Shown: positions 5,209 to 9,993 of the stretch, in pieces
Layout of the letters: the number at the start of each line of letters is the position of its first letter
Position numbering within the stretch: the first letter of the stretch is position 1
Origin: an uncultured Thermoplasmata archaeon
GTDB taxonomy: Archaea > Thermoplasmatota > Thermoplasmata > Methanomassiliicoccales > Methanomethylophilaceae
Assembly: GCA_946545675.1 (NCBI GenBank)
Contig: CAMNNR010000026.1
Span: forward strand, 1-11,480
DNA length: 11,480 bases
Reading direction: 5' to 3'
Translations under genes and position numbers: made by a program
Notes under the pieces: model-generated
Databases searched by the model: none
What the model was told of the DNA's origin: nothing
The model's input: only the letters and a program-made list of their open reading frames with translations

Positions 5209-5230
5209 ATGGCTGTCTATGGGAGGTTTG

Positions 5231-5252
5231 TTAATATAATTTTCTAAAACCG
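5231..5252 (-). promoter_or_regulatory. glnN promoter (TATA box), probably leaderless
   Basis: On the minus strand AATTATATTAA occupies 5231-5241 and is preceded by CGGTTTTAGAA. Its centre is about 27 bases from the ATG at 5208, which puts transcription start at or next to the start codon. No Shine-Dalgarno lies between. I found no GGAA-N6-TTCC site of the kind known for the methanogen nitrogen repressor NrpR. Confidence 0.6.
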
Positions 5253-5373
5253 ATTAAAATACCAAACATATCATGAATACTGGATATTTTGTATCACAAT
5301 TTCCATGTTTGTTAGATGAACGTCTATTATTTGCATCCAATATCGACGGGTAACCAACAATTGACGTTAACAG

Positions 5374-5387
5374 ACTTAAGAACTTAA
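5374..5387 (+). repeat. Direct repeat upstream of the SPFH operon
   Basis: ACTTAA occurs at 5374-5379 and again at 5382-5387, and GTTAA at 5366-5370 faces TTAAC at 5384-5388. The cluster lies just upstream of the probable TATA box of the plus-strand operon, where an activator or repressor might bind. The region is AT-rich, so chance is possible. Confidence 0.25.
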
Positions 5388-5395
5388 CATCCCCA

Positions 5396-5409
5396 TCTTT
5401 TAGTATTTG
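5396..5409 (+). promoter_or_regulatory. Probable promoter of the five-gene SPFH operon
   Basis: TCTTTTAGTATTTG is the most TATA-like segment at a suitable distance before the first gene. It would place transcription start near 5427, leaving about 20 bases of leader with the GAGGTGA ribosome site at 5436-5442. The match is moderate. The rest of the 238-base divergent gap (5209-5446) contains the glnN promoter and no gene that I can support. Confidence 0.45.
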
Positions 5410-5446
5410 TTCGCACATTAATCGCGCAGTTAAAAGAGGTGACGAA

Positions 5447-6367
5447 ATGGCACTGTTTTTCAAAGGTGGCGAACAGCTCTATCAGGAAGCATTGGACGCC
5501 ATCGGCAGGAAGGACTACGATGCCGCCCTGAAGAAATTCCAGGATGCGAAAGAGAAGGGGTACGATCCCGACGGCCTGTGCATGGTCTACGTCTCGATAA
5601 TCTATGTAGGGAAGAACCGCAACAACGTCCGTGGCTACCACCACCTGCTCGAGAACCTCCACCACACCAATGCCGGAACCATCAAGTTCGGTCTCACCAG
5701 CTTCGAGACGTCTGACCTGGCGACTGAATGTGAGCTCGCCATAATGGAGATCGAAGCATCGAACATGAGCAAGGACGACTACGTCAACAAAGGGAACCGT
5801 CTGATTGAGGTCGCCGGACAGTACATGTCACGCATCGGTGAGAAGAACCTGAAACTGGATGAGATCTTCAAGGGCAACACCATCGCCACTGGCAACAGGG
5901 AGGCGCTCATCCTCCAGGCAGAAGCCTACTCGATACTCGGAAAGGGATACGTGCGCACCGACCCCAAGATGGCCGCGGAATACATGCAGATGGCATACAA
6001 CTTCCGCAAACAGCTGGGAGACTCCGGCGACGAGGAGATGCAATTATCCCAGAACTTCGCCAGGTCCGCCACCTGCTGGATCTGCGGCAGGCCCGCCAAC
6101 GGACAGGGCATCCATTTCATGGCCATGAGGGCGGACATAGAGCCCGTCTTCCAGAAGATGACCGATAACGATGTCGTGAAACCCATATCCGACGACAGCA
6201 GGAGCGTCTACGTATGCATGCCCTGCTACACCGCCATATCCAACAGGTCCGACGAGGTCTCCAGGGTCTACTACGAGAGGGCATTGGCAGACATGAGGGC
6301 CATGGAGGCCAGACTTCAGGCCGAGATCTCATCGCTGAGGTTCAGCATGAGCATGAACAGGAGATGA
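5447..6367 (+). CDS. Uncharacterised helical-repeat protein with a Cys4 zinc-binding module (first gene of SPFH operon)
   Basis: 306 residues; I do not recognise a named family. Residues about 5-60 look like a TPR-type helical pair (YQEALDAIGRKDYDAALKKF at 12-31), and about 150-190 like another helical pair. Cys210 and Cys213 (CWICGR) and Cys257 and Cys260 (CMPC) form two CxxC knuckles about 43 residues apart, as in a treble-clef or split zinc ribbon. The C-terminal 45 residues are an amphipathic, probably coiled-coil helix. There is no signal peptide or membrane segment, so it should be cytosolic. The start is supported by GAGGTGA four bases before the ATG. The stop is four bases before the next ATG, marking it as the lead gene of a tight operon. 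The combination suggests a protein-protein scaffold or adaptor. Zinc binding is inferred from the cysteine pattern only. Confidence 0.85.
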   Translation: MALFFKGGEQLYQEALDAIGRKDYDAALKKFQDAKEKGYDPDGLCMVYVSIIYVGKNRNNVRGYHHLLENLHHTNAGTIKFGLTSFETSDLATECELAIMEIEASNMSKDDYVNKGNRLIEVAGQYMSRIGEKNLKLDEIFKGNTIATGNREALILQAEAYSILGKGYVRTDPKMAAEYMQMAYNFRKQLGDSGDEEMQLSQNFARSATCWICGRPANGQGIHFMAMRADIEPVFQKMTDNDVVKPISDDSRSVYVCMPCYTAISNRSDEVSRVYYERALADMRAMEARLQAEISSLRFSMSMNRR

Positions 6368-6371
6368 GACC

Positions 6372-7916
6372 ATGGAAGACATGCAGGCCCTGAGATGCAA
6401 ATACTGCGGCGCGCCCCTCGACGAGGCCGCCGTGAAGGGGGACAGCCCCTACGTGACCTGCTCCAGCTGCGGAACGACACAGCAGAAGATCGATGCGCAG
6501 GCATACCTCAACCAGCTCATGGGGCAGGTACGCTCGTGGGTCAACCAGGCCATGCCCGGAGGATTCTCCGCGGCACAGAGCCAGAACGTCGACAGCGTGG
6601 CAAGGCACAACATCTTCATGACCAGTTTCAAGCCCCGTATCGATATGGAGTACACCTCTTACAAGTTCGGGATGAACAGCCTGCTCTCGCAGGTGATGAT
6701 GGTCATGCCCTTCGCGGTCAACACCAGCCTCAAAGCTAACCACACCTCGACGCAGACCTTCGAATTCGGAGCGAAGATGAACGAGATCTCCCCGCTTGCG
6801 GTGAGCGACGAGACCTCCCGTCTCATGACAGAGGTCAGCAAGACCACGGATGCCTATGCACTCCTGATCAACAACTGCGAACTGGTCCGCGAGGACAAAC
6901 CCGGCAGATATGTTCTGATGGCCAACAACTTCACCACGGCGGCGCAGGACTTCTCCAAAGTGAAAGAATACGAACCGGCACAGCTCCGCTTCGAGGGTCT
7001 GGCACTCCTCTGTATGGGCTGCGAGAAACTGCTGAACGGGGACGTGGCCGGATCGTTCGGACACTTCAATGCGGGAAAATCAAAACTCCAGGAAGCCGCG
7101 GCGAAAACCATGGGCAACATCAAGGTGGCCATCATGGGCCAGGCCGTCAACCAGGAGATCAAGCAGGCCGATGCCCTCATCGAGATGGCGAACTACGTCA
7201 ACAGCATGGGCGGTTCCAAGGAGGTCTTCGACGCGGTCAGGAGGATCCTCACGTACTCATACCCCGCCACCGGCAACTGGGCATTCATGCTCAGCAACCA
7301 CGACAGGCTCGGCGAGATCTTCACCTACATGACGGAGGCGATCAAGGCCAAATCCGGCGGAGGCACCATCCCTATCGCAGCCGGCCCCGGGGATCTCCTC
7401 GTCCCATTCTGGCATATCAATCTCAAATACAGTTTCCAGACGGGATCGCTATGGAAGAAGCACAGCGTGGAGGTCAGCGAACCCCTGCTGGTTCCGGCAG
7501 ACTTCGTCATCGATTCGGACAGTCTCAACAACCCCCGCCATGCGGTGACCGATGTCTTCAGCATCAAGGGCTCCAACGGACTGTTCGCAGGTCTCACCGG
7601 CAACGAATCCAGCATCAGCAACTCCCTGGGCCTCGGGAACCTCATAGAATCCGCGGCGAACAACGGGGCGGCGGGAAGGCAGATTGTGGTACCGCTCAGC
7701 ACCAGGAAGGAAGCGGAGAGGCTTGCGGAGAACTATGTCCAGGCGGTCGCCAGGGTGGAAGATAAACTGAAACTCAGCAACCCGGAGGTCATGGGCATGA
7801 TCTACCTGCCGTTCTCGTACTCCGGGAACGTGCTGAAGGCCCCCGCGGGACTGGAACGCCTCGTCCCGGAAAGGGTACGCAGGACAAACACTCAACAACT
7901 CATCATCCTTAGGTGA
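6372..7916 (+). CDS. Uncharacterised large protein with N-terminal zinc ribbon (second gene of SPFH operon)
   Basis: 514 residues. A zinc ribbon occupies the N-terminus, with CKYC at 9-12 and CSSC at 30-33. The rest is mixed: a mostly helical middle (about 145-325) that could form helical repeats, then a probable beta-containing region with DLLVPFWHINLKYSF at 341-355 and PLLVPADFV at 371-379. The VPFW...LVPA pattern reminds me of zinc-ribbon membrane-stress proteins found beside SPFH proteins in bacteria (the YdjG/YdjH setting), but this is recollection, not a demonstrated match. No clear transmembrane helix is seen. The start at 6372 is supported by AGGAG at 6359-6363, eight bases upstream, overlapping the end of the preceding gene. 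The stop codon forms part of the next gene's ribosome site (AGGTGA, 7911-7916), implying coupled translation. Function unknown; it probably works with the SPFH protein. Confidence 0.85.
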   Translation: MEDMQALRCKYCGAPLDEAAVKGDSPYVTCSSCGTTQQKIDAQAYLNQLMGQVRSWVNQAMPGGFSAAQSQNVDSVARHNIFMTSFKPRIDMEYTSYKFGMNSLLSQVMMVMPFAVNTSLKANHTSTQTFEFGAKMNEISPLAVSDETSRLMTEVSKTTDAYALLINNCELVREDKPGRYVLMANNFTTAAQDFSKVKEYEPAQLRFEGLALLCMGCEKLLNGDVAGSFGHFNAGKSKLQEAAAKTMGNIKVAIMGQAVNQEIKQADALIEMANYVNSMGGSKEVFDAVRRILTYSYPATGNWAFMLSNHDRLGEIFTYMTEAIKAKSGGGTIPIAAGPGDLLVPFWHINLKYSFQTGSLWKKHSVEVSEPLLVPADFVIDSDSLNNPRHAVTDVFSIKGSNGLFAGLTGNESSISNSLGLGNLIESAANNGAAGRQIVVPLSTRKEAERLAENYVQAVARVEDKLKLSNPEVMGMIYLPFSYSGNVLKAPAGLERLVPERVRRTNTQQLIILR

Positions 7917-7920
7917 TAAA

Positions 7921-8301
7921 ATGACAGAGAACACTGGAAAAGACTATCGCTCCCATCAGGCGGTGCTGATCTGCATACTGATCATCGCAGTCGCCGTGGC
8001 AATATTGCTGGCCGGATACTTCGGATTCAGCTGGACCGTAGCAGCGGGTGCATTCCTGTTCATCGCAGGACTCGCTGTGACAGGCATCGCACACGTACAC
8101 AGCGACGCCCCTGACAAATTCGGACCCTCGGAGTCCGCATACCGCCTGGTGATCGGGACGGTAATCACGCTCATCGGAGCAATCGTGGTCCTTCTGGGAC
8201 TCGGGGTGGACCTCGTGATTCTCATCGTGGTCCTGCTCATCGGAATCGCATTAATCGGCCTTGGTGCCGTTCACATCGGAAAGAGGACATCAAAATACTG
8301 A
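7921..8301 (+). CDS. Small four-helix integral membrane protein (third gene of SPFH operon)
   Basis: 126 residues with four hydrophobic spans at about 14-32, 38-56, 76-94 and 97-117. A short hydrophilic link (about 57-75, containing HVHSDAPDK) separates two helical hairpins. The last two spans are nearly pure Ile/Leu/Val/Gly/Ala and joined by a tight GVD turn. Both ends are charged, with a basic C-terminus (KRTSK). With an even number of spans the two ends lie on the same side, most likely the cytosol. It has no catalytic motif and I recognise no family. It is the only clear membrane protein of the operon, so it is the natural candidate to anchor the other products at the membrane. The start has AGGTGA four bases upstream, and its stop overlaps the GAGGA ribosome site of the next gene. 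Confidence 0.88.
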   Translation: MTENTGKDYRSHQAVLICILIIAVAVAILLAGYFGFSWTVAAGAFLFIAGLAVTGIAHVHSDAPDKFGPSESAYRLVIGTVITLIGAIVVLLGLGVDLVILIVVLLIGIALIGLGAVHIGKRTSKY

Positions 8302-8310
8302 GGAATAGAC

Positions 8311-8850
8311 ATGGCAAACGAACTTGAGAGAAGCGCGGAAGAATCCATCGCCAAGAACAGGACCCTCGTAGAGAGGATATGCATGTACGTCCCGTTCTAC
8401 AGGGGATACAAACAGAAAGAACTCCGCAGGGACGAGGACCGTGCCATCAGGGAAGTGGTCGCCAAGGTGCTCGAAGCCTGCAAAAACGATCTTGCCAACG
8501 CCGCCAGGGCCACTGTCGGCGACCTTGACGCCATGAGGGACATGGAGAGGATTAGGAGCAAAGTCGACCGCTACTGCACCGACGTGAAGAAAGCGGTGAA
8601 CGGATACAGCGGCGTCCACGCCACGATCAAGATCCTCGAGAGCGAACTGGACAGGGTCATCTCCTGGGACGCTCAGCTCATCGACGATGTGGAACTGCTC
8701 AAACAGCAGACCGAGAACCTTCTCGCCAACATCGACAACAACCTGCCCATCAAGAGCGAGATGAGGACCATCGAGCAGACCGTGGATTCGCTCATCAACA
8801 CCTACCGCGAAAGGGACAACATAATGAAGAACCTCAACGAGGAGGCTTGA
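8311..8850 (+). CDS. Soluble helical/coiled-coil protein of unknown family (fourth gene of SPFH operon)
   Basis: 179 residues, almost entirely helical and strongly charged. Residues 27-48 hold a distinctive segment, VPFYRGYKQKELRRDEDR and onward, between a short N-terminal helix and a long helical body. From memory, a PGYKGYKxKExRR-like segment also marks bacterial hypothetical proteins encoded near SPFH proteins; I cannot confirm this here. Later come DRYCTDVKKAVNGYSGVHA at 86-104 and coiled-coil-like heptads from about 105 to 175. It has no membrane span and only three scattered cysteines, so no metal site is evident. In size and helicity it is comparable to PspA/Vipp1 membrane-remodelling proteins, but I see no PspA motif. 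It begins six bases after a GAGGA ribosome site (8300-8304) and ends two bases before the SPFH start. Confidence 0.85.
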   Translation: MANELERSAEESIAKNRTLVERICMYVPFYRGYKQKELRRDEDRAIREVVAKVLEACKNDLANAARATVGDLDAMRDMERIRSKVDRYCTDVKKAVNGYSGVHATIKILESELDRVISWDAQLIDDVELLKQQTENLLANIDNNLPIKSEMRTIEQTVDSLINTYRERDNIMKNLNEEA

Positions 8851-8852
8851 AA

Positions 8853-9956
8853 ATGGCATTCGGCAGCAAAGAACCCAAGACCAACGTGGTCACCTGGCAG
8901 AACCAGGGACCTGACGACATCATCTACGCATCGCCCTTCGACGACCTCAGGACCCTGACCTCCGTCACCGTCCCGGAGCACGCCGTCGCCCTGTTCGTCA
9001 GGGACGGAAAACTCGAAGGGGCCCTGTCGCCCGGAAGGCACATGATCACCACCAACAACATCCCCTGGCTGACCAAACTCTACCAGCTGGCACTTGGTTA
9101 CAAGGAGACCCCCTTCAAGGTCAACATCGTGTTCATCTCCCAGAAGATGTTCAACGGGAAATGGGGCATCCGCGGAATGATCAAAGCCGCACAGGGATAC
9201 GAGGTCCCCGTGACCCTCATGTCCAACGGAGAGTTCCAGTTCAGGATCTCCGACGTGGCAGTGTTCTACACCCAGATCCTCGGTGGGATGAGCAACTACT
9301 CCACCGGCAACGTGAACGCGCTGATGAAGAGCTTCATCAACGAGCAGATCACCCAGCAGCTTGCCCAGCAGTACTACATGGATGTCCTCCAGAACCTCGA
9401 GAAGGCCTCCACCACCACCAAGATCCTCATCGACCCCTACTTCCAGCAGAGGGGAATCGAACTCCTCTCCCTGAAGATCAACGAGGTCTCCACCACCGAG
9501 GAGGAGAAGGCCAAGATCTTCGAGTACCTCCAGTTCTCCTCCGCCAACGGAGAGTCCTTCAAGAGGTACGAGGTCATGGACAGGATGGCAGACGCCATCG
9601 GCGACTCCCAGGGAGGAGCGGCCATGGGTGCCGGAATGATGCTGTTCCCCCAGATGTACCAGCAGCTCAACCAGCAGCCCGCCCAGAACGCACAGGCACA
9701 GGTCACTAAGGTCATGTGCCCCTACTGCGGAGGTCTCAACACCTACCCCTACAAGTTCTGTGGCGAATGCGGCAAACCGAGCCCCCAGATGCAGCAGCAA
9801 CAGCCTCCTGCACAGCCCGCCCCCACACCTGCTCAGCCTGCACCCTCCGGCGGAGCACCCGGAGCATTCAAGAGGTGCCCTTACTGCGGAGAGGACCTCA
9901 GCATGCTGAAGAAGACCCCGAAATTCTGCCCGTACTGTTCGGAAGAACTTTCCTGA
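8853..9956 (+). CDS. SPFH-domain (stomatin/prohibitin-like, YdjI type) protein with two C-terminal zinc ribbons
   Basis: 367 residues, last gene of the operon. Residues about 10-230 form the YdjI-type SPFH domain. Recognisable segments are TWQNQGPDDIIYASPFDDL (14-32), VPEHAVALFVRDGKLEGALS (40-59), PGRHMITTNNIPWLTKL (60-76) and KWGIRG (103-108). SPFH proteins form large ring- or cage-like assemblies on membranes; YdjI types (COG4260-like) lack an N-terminal membrane span, as here, and are recruited by partners. A helical stretch at about 215-245 and a Gln-rich region lead into zinc ribbon 1 (Cys289, 292, 303, 306), a Gln/Pro/Ala linker (about 311-337) and zinc ribbon 2 (Cys342, 345, 359, 362). 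I chose the ATG at 8853 because GGAGG (8841-8845) lies seven bases upstream; a TTG two codons earlier at 8847 is the alternative. A poxvirus-like 'virion core protein' label sometimes given to this family is misleading. Confidence 0.93.
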   Translation: MAFGSKEPKTNVVTWQNQGPDDIIYASPFDDLRTLTSVTVPEHAVALFVRDGKLEGALSPGRHMITTNNIPWLTKLYQLALGYKETPFKVNIVFISQKMFNGKWGIRGMIKAAQGYEVPVTLMSNGEFQFRISDVAVFYTQILGGMSNYSTGNVNALMKSFINEQITQQLAQQYYMDVLQNLEKASTTTKILIDPYFQQRGIELLSLKINEVSTTEEEKAKIFEYLQFSSANGESFKRYEVMDRMADAIGDSQGGAAMGAGMMLFPQMYQQLNQQPAQNAQAQVTKVMCPYCGGLNTYPYKFCGECGKPSPQMQQQQPPAQPAPTPAQPAPSGGAPGAFKRCPYCGEDLSMLKKTPKFCPYCSEELS

Positions 9957-9965
9957 ACCCCCCTT

Positions 9966-9993
9966 GCCGGCCTTCGGGCCGGCCCATAATTTT
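9966..9993 (+). terminator. C(UUCG)G stem-loop after the SPFH operon
   Basis: GCCGGCC and GGCCGGC form a perfect 7-bp GC stem around TTCG (9966-9983), another cUUCGg tetraloop. It lies nine bases after the SPFH stop and is followed by CCATAATTTT, a short imperfect U-run. It is likely a terminator or 3'-end stabiliser of the operon mRNA. Some read-through is plausible because the next gene has a Shine-Dalgarno and no convincing promoter of its own. Confidence 0.6.

Follow-up and report, generated by a model that had tools for sequence, protein, structure and literature searches.

The stretch of DNA analysed here (the window) comprises 11,480 nucleotides, positions 1 to 11,480 of contig CAMNNR010000026.1, from an uncultured Thermoplasmata archaeon of the family Methanomethylophilaceae (order Methanomassiliicoccales; GenBank assembly GCA_946545675.1, 1.17 Mb in 153 contigs, 70.6% complete). 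It carries a block of five genes, g1 to g5, in which the gene for a small helical protein (g4) directly precedes the gene for an SPFH protein with zinc ribbons (g5). The g4-g5 gene pair, its spread, the exchange of its accessory genes and the missing PspA are established by our survey, and the two proteins very likely act together. The features of the locus are as follows.

5209-5446, plus strand: AT-rich intergenic region before g1, carrying TTTTAGTAT
5447-6367, plus strand: g1, 306 amino acids (aa); TPR-like N-terminal part (weak, seen in orthologs) and a C-terminal Cys4 site (CWIC..CMPC)
6372-7916, plus strand: g2, 514 aa; N-terminal zinc ribbon, helical middle part (about residues 40-330) and C-terminal mixed alpha/beta part
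7921-8301, plus strand: g3, 126 aa; integral membrane protein with 3-4 spans by hydropathy, the probable anchor
8311-8850, plus strand: g4, 179 aa; all helical, upstream neighbour of the SPFH gene
8853-9956, plus strand: g5, 367 aa from ATG 8853; SPFH protein of the Band_7_1 family (PF13421) with two C-terminal zinc ribbons
9966-9983, plus strand: GC-rich, terminator-like hairpin at the operon end

The genes are separated by gaps of 4, 4, 9 and 2 bases (g1-g2, g2-g3, g3-g4 and g4-g5, respectively), and Shine-Dalgarno strings of the GAGG/AGGTG type stand ahead of all five starts; for g2 to g5 the stop codon of the upstream gene overlaps or abuts this string. An alternative start of g5 is TTG 8847. 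The AT-rich stretch 5' of g1 is the sole promoter-sized gap before or inside the block. It holds TTTTAGTAT 49 bases 5' of the g1 start, which may be an archaeal TATA box; the string has a similar position in two of the 15 other loci printed (L087 and L101), and a TATA pattern scan listed no match. The hairpin has a 7-bp stem composed entirely of GC, with CCATAATTTT after it, and heads the list of terminator-like sites. An earlier sequence-only reading of this DNA, made by a model, had described the five plus-strand genes with their coordinates and gaps, Shine-Dalgarno strings often built from the preceding stop codon, a promoter region on the left and a hairpin on the right, all of which agrees with what we find.

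We followed the block through 81 genomes of the order, 36 from the host family (f1) and 45 from other families of Methanomassiliicoccales, reading the loci by six-frame profile searches (G, L and C denote genomes, loci and contigs; f2, f5 and f6 are sister families). The protein homologs considered were the best 120 of 734 and the best 120 of 180; those of g2 bear names such as Candidatus Methanomethylophilus, Candidatus Methanoplasma and Methanomethylophilaceae. Across the order g4 is present in 61 and g5 in 67 of the 81 genomes, and g4 lies directly upstream of g5 in all 18 host-family loci and in all 18 sister-family loci (L067-L084) that were examined among 37 g4-carrying genomes. In the sister families the genes 3' of g5 are ZnA (17 of the 18 loci), ZnB (16) and ZnC (16); the exceptions are L069, cut by a contig edge, and L083, where all three are missing. 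ZnA and ZnB are homologous to each other; every one of the 12 aligned members of either has an N-terminal ribbon and, towards the C-terminus, 1-2 predicted spans, while ZnC has no span. LemA and TPM genes follow ZnA-ZnB-ZnC in five of eight f2 loci, and NfeD and stomatin-like genes do so in six of seven f6 loci and one of two f5 loci; two LemA, one TPM, two NfeD and one stomatin-like gene were profile-tested and the remainder assigned by similarity clusters. Seven f5 and f6 loci (L067, L072, L073, L075, L077, L080 and L081) thus show two different SPFH systems adjoining each other.

Across the phylum Thermoplasmatota, g4 was found in 63 of the 194 genomes sampled. Loci from 20 of the 42 g4-carrying genomes outside the order were examined, and g5 lies next to g4 in 18 of them. 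The other two, L157 and L158, hold a weak g4 relative followed by a protein without an SPFH match, in one case with a terminal zinc ribbon; both adjoin ABC-transporter-like genes, and L157 also has a PAP2-family gene. In seven of ten class-level loci the gene 3' of g5 encodes two zinc ribbons (Pfam-tested in four) and a domain related to ZnA and ZnB. A long TPR gene and a gene for a protein with four transmembrane (TM) segments were observed upstream of g4-g5 in L139 (8044-13331; the TPR protein, 1515 aa, was profile-tested), with genes of similar size to the TPR gene in L141 and L148, and possibly parallel g1 and g3.

The pair is also present beyond the phylum. A scan of a genome collection with the g4 alignment gave 95 relatives, of which 80 loci were kept, some repeating earlier genomes. 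Most belong to Thermoplasmatota, and the others to Methanomicrobium, Methanocorpusculum and Thorarchaeota and, among bacteria, to Chloroflexota, Planctomycetota, Armatimonadota, Zipacnadia and further metagenome-assembled genomes. An SPFH gene starts within 500 bases 3' of g4 on the same strand in 76 of the 80 named loci; the four misses are two contig edges (L190 and L212) and two Thorarchaeota loci with the SPFH gene 3-4 kb off. Several Methanocorpusculum loci read ZnA-ZnB-ZnC-(4-TM protein)-g4-g5, a layout of the window type built with other zinc-ribbon genes, and in five Chloroflexota loci the gene immediately 5' of g4 encodes a 2-TM protein. The zinc-ribbon-g4-g5 cassette was seen in eleven Methanomicrobium and Methanocorpusculum loci, many from animal guts (L202, L203, L205, L208-L210, L213, L215, L216, L218 and L220).

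For the phylogenetic analysis we used 107 of the 122 loci with both proteins, leaving out 12 of L159-L173 as presumed near-duplicates and three short fragments; two other alignments, A1 and A4, hold 30 of 35 g4 members and 21 of 38 g5 members. Tree distances of g4 and g5 are strongly correlated over these loci (r = 0.912; reached by 0 of 999 permutations), and common descent of the genomes accounts for part of this correlation. Both unrooted trees separate the host family, Thorarchaeota and bacteria from the other sampled Thermoplasmatota and Methanomicrobiales (support 1.0 each), and the host family, including g4 and g5 of the window, is joined with Thorarchaeota (L228 and L231; support 0.84 for g4 and 1.0 for g5). 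Because both trees place it with Thorarchaeota and bacteria, the host-family pair is not simply the pair of the sister families with new neighbours; judged from these trees, it appears to be a second branch, the product either of transfer or of very rapid change. The host-family branch is long (mean distance to the sister families 4.4-4.6), and a long-branch artefact is therefore possible. Methanomicrobiales form a single clade on the Thermoplasmatota side of both trees, which would fit a transfer of the cassette in its entirety.

PspA (PF04012) reached its cut-off in two of the 81 genomes of the order, one of the 194 of the phylum and two of 19 g4-carrying genomes outside the phylum, in a search whose control matched nine of 14 well-known genomes. 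No PF04012 match was found among the five block proteins or in the 70.6% of the window genome that the assembly covers. Snf7 was found in none of the 81 genomes of the order, a negative of low sensitivity and hence weak, because the control matched only Sulfolobus, below the cut-off.

The product of g5 is assigned to Band_7_1 well above the curated cut-off (91 bits against 24; E = 1.1e-25). It has four CxxC pairs, forming two C-terminal ribbons, and no membrane span by hydropathy; the four cysteines of the first ribbon are invariant (21 of 21 members), and those of the second are conserved in at least 90%. Among the bacterial SPFH partners of g4, eight of 13 have C-terminal CxxC pairs and five do not, these being the Chloroflexota partners from the loci with the 2-TM protein. 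In one host-family genome an open reading frame of 96 aa lies just 3' of g5 (G027:C1:917953-918240, in L088) and is 45% identical to g5 residues 258-365, the zinc-ribbon tail.

The model of the partner, g4, shows a bundle of helices together with an N-terminal helix and not a long coiled coil. The protein belongs to no Pfam family, and PF04012 is absent from the eight families matching at E ≤ 1; judged by sequence, g4 is not PspA. Weak Pfam matches (ALIX_LYPXL_bnd at E = 0.0025, End3 and others) are typical of helical proteins and were not used as evidence. The closest named family is NF047596 (LIMLP_15305), to which g4 scores 35.7 bits (E = 7.5e-9) against an equivalog cut-off of 210, so that it is not a member; ten further g4 members score 23-59 bits, likewise far below. 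Since g4 and these ten match most of the length of the family (E from 5e-5 to 7e-16), g4 appears to be its distant relative. We found no description of the function of LIMLP_15305 in the literature, and the passage seen of one paper merely lists the locus tag. The g4 relative of L139 (7333-7986) has an N-terminal extension with a zinc-ribbon-like CNACGAPL string. The suggestion in the sequence-only reading that one product is nearly all helical thus holds for g4, as does the position it gave to this protein, that of PspA; the description as a coiled-coil protein does not.

Cys4 patterns had been proposed for three products, two of them in the SPFH protein, and they are present in g1, g2 and g5. 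The two CxxC pairs of g1 (C210, C213, C257 and C260) are invariant in 20 of 20 orthologs; Pfam TPR_2 matches 16 of these (best E = 2e-5), and no Pfam family matched the g1 of the window itself. In g2, two CxxC pairs make up the N-terminal ribbon, whose four cysteines are invariant in 49 of 49 members, and a third at position 214 is not invariant; the protein has no membrane span by hydropathy. Its profile matches Gid8 (E = 7e-4), and its predicted structure resembles Bro1 domains, but inside a helical background of matches. The BRO1 profile is not among the seven families matching g2 at E ≤ 1, nor was it seen among the 25 families listed, out of 40, for the 49 members. A reading of the C-terminal part of g2 as a copy of the ZnC domain was rejected, as merely a PFW-type motif of 12-13 columns aligns (E = 0.0045; reversed control 0.56); these columns also align with ZnA and ZnB and are kept as a hint.

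The sole product with membrane-type hydropathy is g3. We count three spans in the window, and a protein of 3-4 spans is encoded at this position in all 18 host-family loci examined; the membrane protein of the sequence-only reading, given there with four spans, is present. Comparisons of g3 with the membrane proteins 5' of g4 in Methanocorpusculum, the class-level loci and Chloroflexota did not establish homology; reversed controls scored higher in the first two and lower for Chloroflexota.

Two further genes of the block, g1 and g2, were found only in the host family. Of the 81 genomes, an identical set of 27, each from f1, carries both genes, and they lie side by side in all 28 copies. In 24 of the 36 f1 genomes they share a single block with g4 and g5. 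Gene order is identical in 18 f1 loci (the window and L087-L103), with a match spacing of 393-474 bases between g2 and g4. The left flank of the window holds glutamine synthetase III, chaperonin and GrpE genes on the opposite strand; on the right, an inositol-phosphatase-family gene begins 51 bases past the g5 stop, behind the hairpin, and is followed by a phosphoribosyltransferase gene. This downstream flank is variable in the family, with zero to several genes ahead of the phosphoribosyltransferase. Co-occurrence of all five genes in many genomes had been named as support for the sequence-only reading; the full set was found only in one family, and it is the g4-g5 pair that is widespread in archaea and bacteria. 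A pattern in which the SPFH gene alone recurs and the other four vary at random was not observed.

Several variants were noted within the host family. G076 has two copies of the block, on C73 and C104 (L053 and L060), and the g5 of C73 contains one internal TGA. In G062 (L106, 2881-16000) the block reads g1-g2-SPFH-225 aa, with an SPFH gene different from g5 and four zinc-ribbon genes upstream, one of them with InlB-like repeats and a transglutaminase domain; genes for a C-5 cytosine methylase and a Vsr endonuclease lie downstream. A second type of SPFH cluster is found in L085 (5956-9672) and L086, from genomes G056 and G048, where a 447-aa Band_7_1 SPFH protein other than g5 and a small TM protein are encoded opposite a zinc-ribbon gene and an AIM24 gene.

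On the analogy with Bacillus pspA-ydjGHI, we lean slightly towards a membrane-associated scaffold that works like the Bacillus system and serves envelope maintenance or stress. In such a scaffold g5 would oligomerise as a ring or cage at the membrane. Its anchor may be g3 or, outside the host family, ZnA/ZnB or some other small membrane protein; the pair is neighboured by the small multi-span g3 in the host family and by small membrane proteins or membrane-spanning zinc-ribbon proteins in many other lineages. By the same analogy g4 would be a dedicated binder of the SPFH assembly and fill the role of the Bacillus PspA, while g1 and g2, with their zinc ribbons, could be adaptors or sensors that deliver clients such as membrane complexes or damaged membrane. 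In favour of the scaffold are the Band_7_1 score of g5, the adjacency of g4 and g5 and the correlation of their tree distances, the rarity of PspA, the class-level gene 3' of g5, the LemA and TPM genes of the f2 loci and the published behaviour of YdjI in Bacillus. The tree and span results leave unchanged both the odds of this reading and those that g4 and g5 act together, because they bear on descent and on the identity of the anchor and not on the pair.

A number of observations weigh against the scaffold. Nine of the 36 f1 genomes (G045, G048, G054, G056, G069, G070, G074, G077 and G080; 88-99% complete) lack g1, g2 and g4 altogether, and the set is therefore dispensable; the C104 copy in G076 runs from g2 directly to g4, which weakens the indispensability of g3. 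Homology of g3 to proteins elsewhere is not demonstrable, with reversed controls higher in two of three comparisons, and zinc ribbons are missing from the five Chloroflexota partners. As the host-family pair lies away from that of the sister families, features of the sister operons may not carry over to it, and the YdjG-like class-level gene has no span in six of seven cases. No PspA, Vipp1 or ESCRT-III chain is among the 50 Foldseek and 50 VIA matches listed for g4, and within Thermoplasmatota PspA is missing with or without g4.

Some of the same data can be read differently. The SPFH-g4 pair could be a chaperone platform that builds or stabilises membrane complexes, for instance energy-converting ones, with zinc-ribbon proteins as client adaptors. 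Its occurrence over very different lineages and the housekeeping genes around the host locus (GrpE, chaperonin, glutamine synthetase III and phosphoribosyltransferase) are in line with this, as is the proposal, in the part of the source seen, that Band-7 and TPM domains act as assembly chaperones (PMC11237479). However, no constant membrane-complex neighbour was seen in the loci inspected, where few neighbours were profile-tested, and we regard such a platform as unlikely though worth keeping in mind. The block might also consist of two unrelated modules, a g3-g4-g5 scaffold and a separate TPR/zinc-ribbon pair g1-g2. G001 and G068 hold g1-g2 without g3-g5, which perhaps indicates two modules, and no locus searched in other families or lineages combines g4-g5 with g1-g2. 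Yet 24 of the 27 genomes with g1-g2 also hold g4 and g5 in the same block, g1-g2 are followed by another SPFH gene in G062, and zinc-ribbon genes occupy the equivalent upstream position in Methanomicrobiales; a division into two modules thus seems rather improbable.

An ESCRT-like remodelling machine without recognisable ESCRT-III, Vps4 or PspA, in which g4 would remodel or repair membranes on the SPFH scaffold and g2 would be a Bro1-like recruiter, is in our view quite improbable. The grouping of g4 and g5 of the host family with Thorarchaeota would fit an exchange of parts between archaeal lineages under this explanation. Bro1 orthologs are reported, in the part of the source seen, as not identifiable even in Asgard archaea (PMC10936438). 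An anti-phage defence cluster is the least credible alternative and was rejected, as profile searches of the five products gave a single weak, partial defence-profile match, of g4 to PADLOC LmuB (E = 4.5e-5), which spans just 100 of 1007 positions; no defence-gene profile of the known anti-phage systems covers most of any of the five proteins. The methylase and Vsr genes near the G062 variant would suit defence, but no nuclease, protease or NTPase domain scores above cut-off in the five products and the host locus lies amid housekeeping genes. The sequence-only reading had likewise seen no such motifs and considered an attacking defence system less likely.

The block is a candidate envelope-maintenance system in archaea. 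SPFH proteins are widespread, yet what their scaffolds hold or act on is often unclear. The small, uncharacterised g4 family stands beside a single SPFH subfamily in archaea as well as bacteria, and most of the genomes concerned lack PspA; g4-g5 offers a defined pair for asking if an SPFH scaffold depends on a partner of the PspA type.

The NfeD-stomatin operon resembles the block in that an SPFH protein is encoded with a membrane partner, and it follows the g4-g5 operon in the f6 and f5 loci given above; however, the best match of g5 is Band_7_1 and that of the stomatin-like gene Band_7, and an NfeD partner belonging to g5 itself is absent. The Meth_adaptin ESCRT loci, as far as the source was seen, share an archaeal SPFH protein with coiled coil and zinc ribbon, but they are placed in Methanobacteriales (PMC10936438), and searches of our five products reported neither a Vps4 nor an adaptin domain, with Snf7 absent from the order in the low-sensitivity search.

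The closest likeness in layout is to pspA-ydjGHI of Bacillus, for which the following comes from parts of two papers. YdjI is described as probably soluble; it depends on YdjG and YdjH for its recruitment to the membrane, and PspA in turn depends on YdjI for localisation there (PMC8581546). YdjG combines a pair of zinc ribbons with another domain and a TM segment (PMC11237479). Like YdjI as described, g5 is a Band 7 SPFH protein with C-terminal zinc ribbons (two Cys4 ribbons and no span), and genes for membrane proteins, zinc-ribbon proteins and a helical partner share its operon. TPM genes (TPM being the domain of YdjH) and genes with two zinc ribbons stand beside related archaeal pairs, and the class-level gene 3' of g5 comes close to the YdjG layout when set beside the published description alone (PMC11237479). 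In contrast, the g4 family replaces PspA and no PF04012 gene is in the window operon; neither the five genes nor the next one encodes a TPM domain; g2 has the ribbon of a YdjG-like protein but not its span; and no Bacillus counterpart of g1, g2 or g3 was established, the Ydj proteins being likened by description and not by sequence. Of the archaeal pspA-ydjGHI counterpart proposed in the sequence-only reading, the Band_7_1 SPFH protein and its zinc-ribbon, membrane and helical operon partners stand, in genomes that lack PspA. Our literature search, which lay mostly outside subscription papers, found no paper linking SPFH proteins to Methanomassiliicoccales or Thermoplasmatota, and no account of the g4 family as an SPFH partner or of the archaeal block. 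SPFH proteins with a zinc ribbon, and SPFH genes beside PspA, are already known; what appears to be new, judged at the level of genes and profiles, is a form of the YdjI-type SPFH system whose partner, from a family found in both archaea and bacteria, takes the place of PspA.

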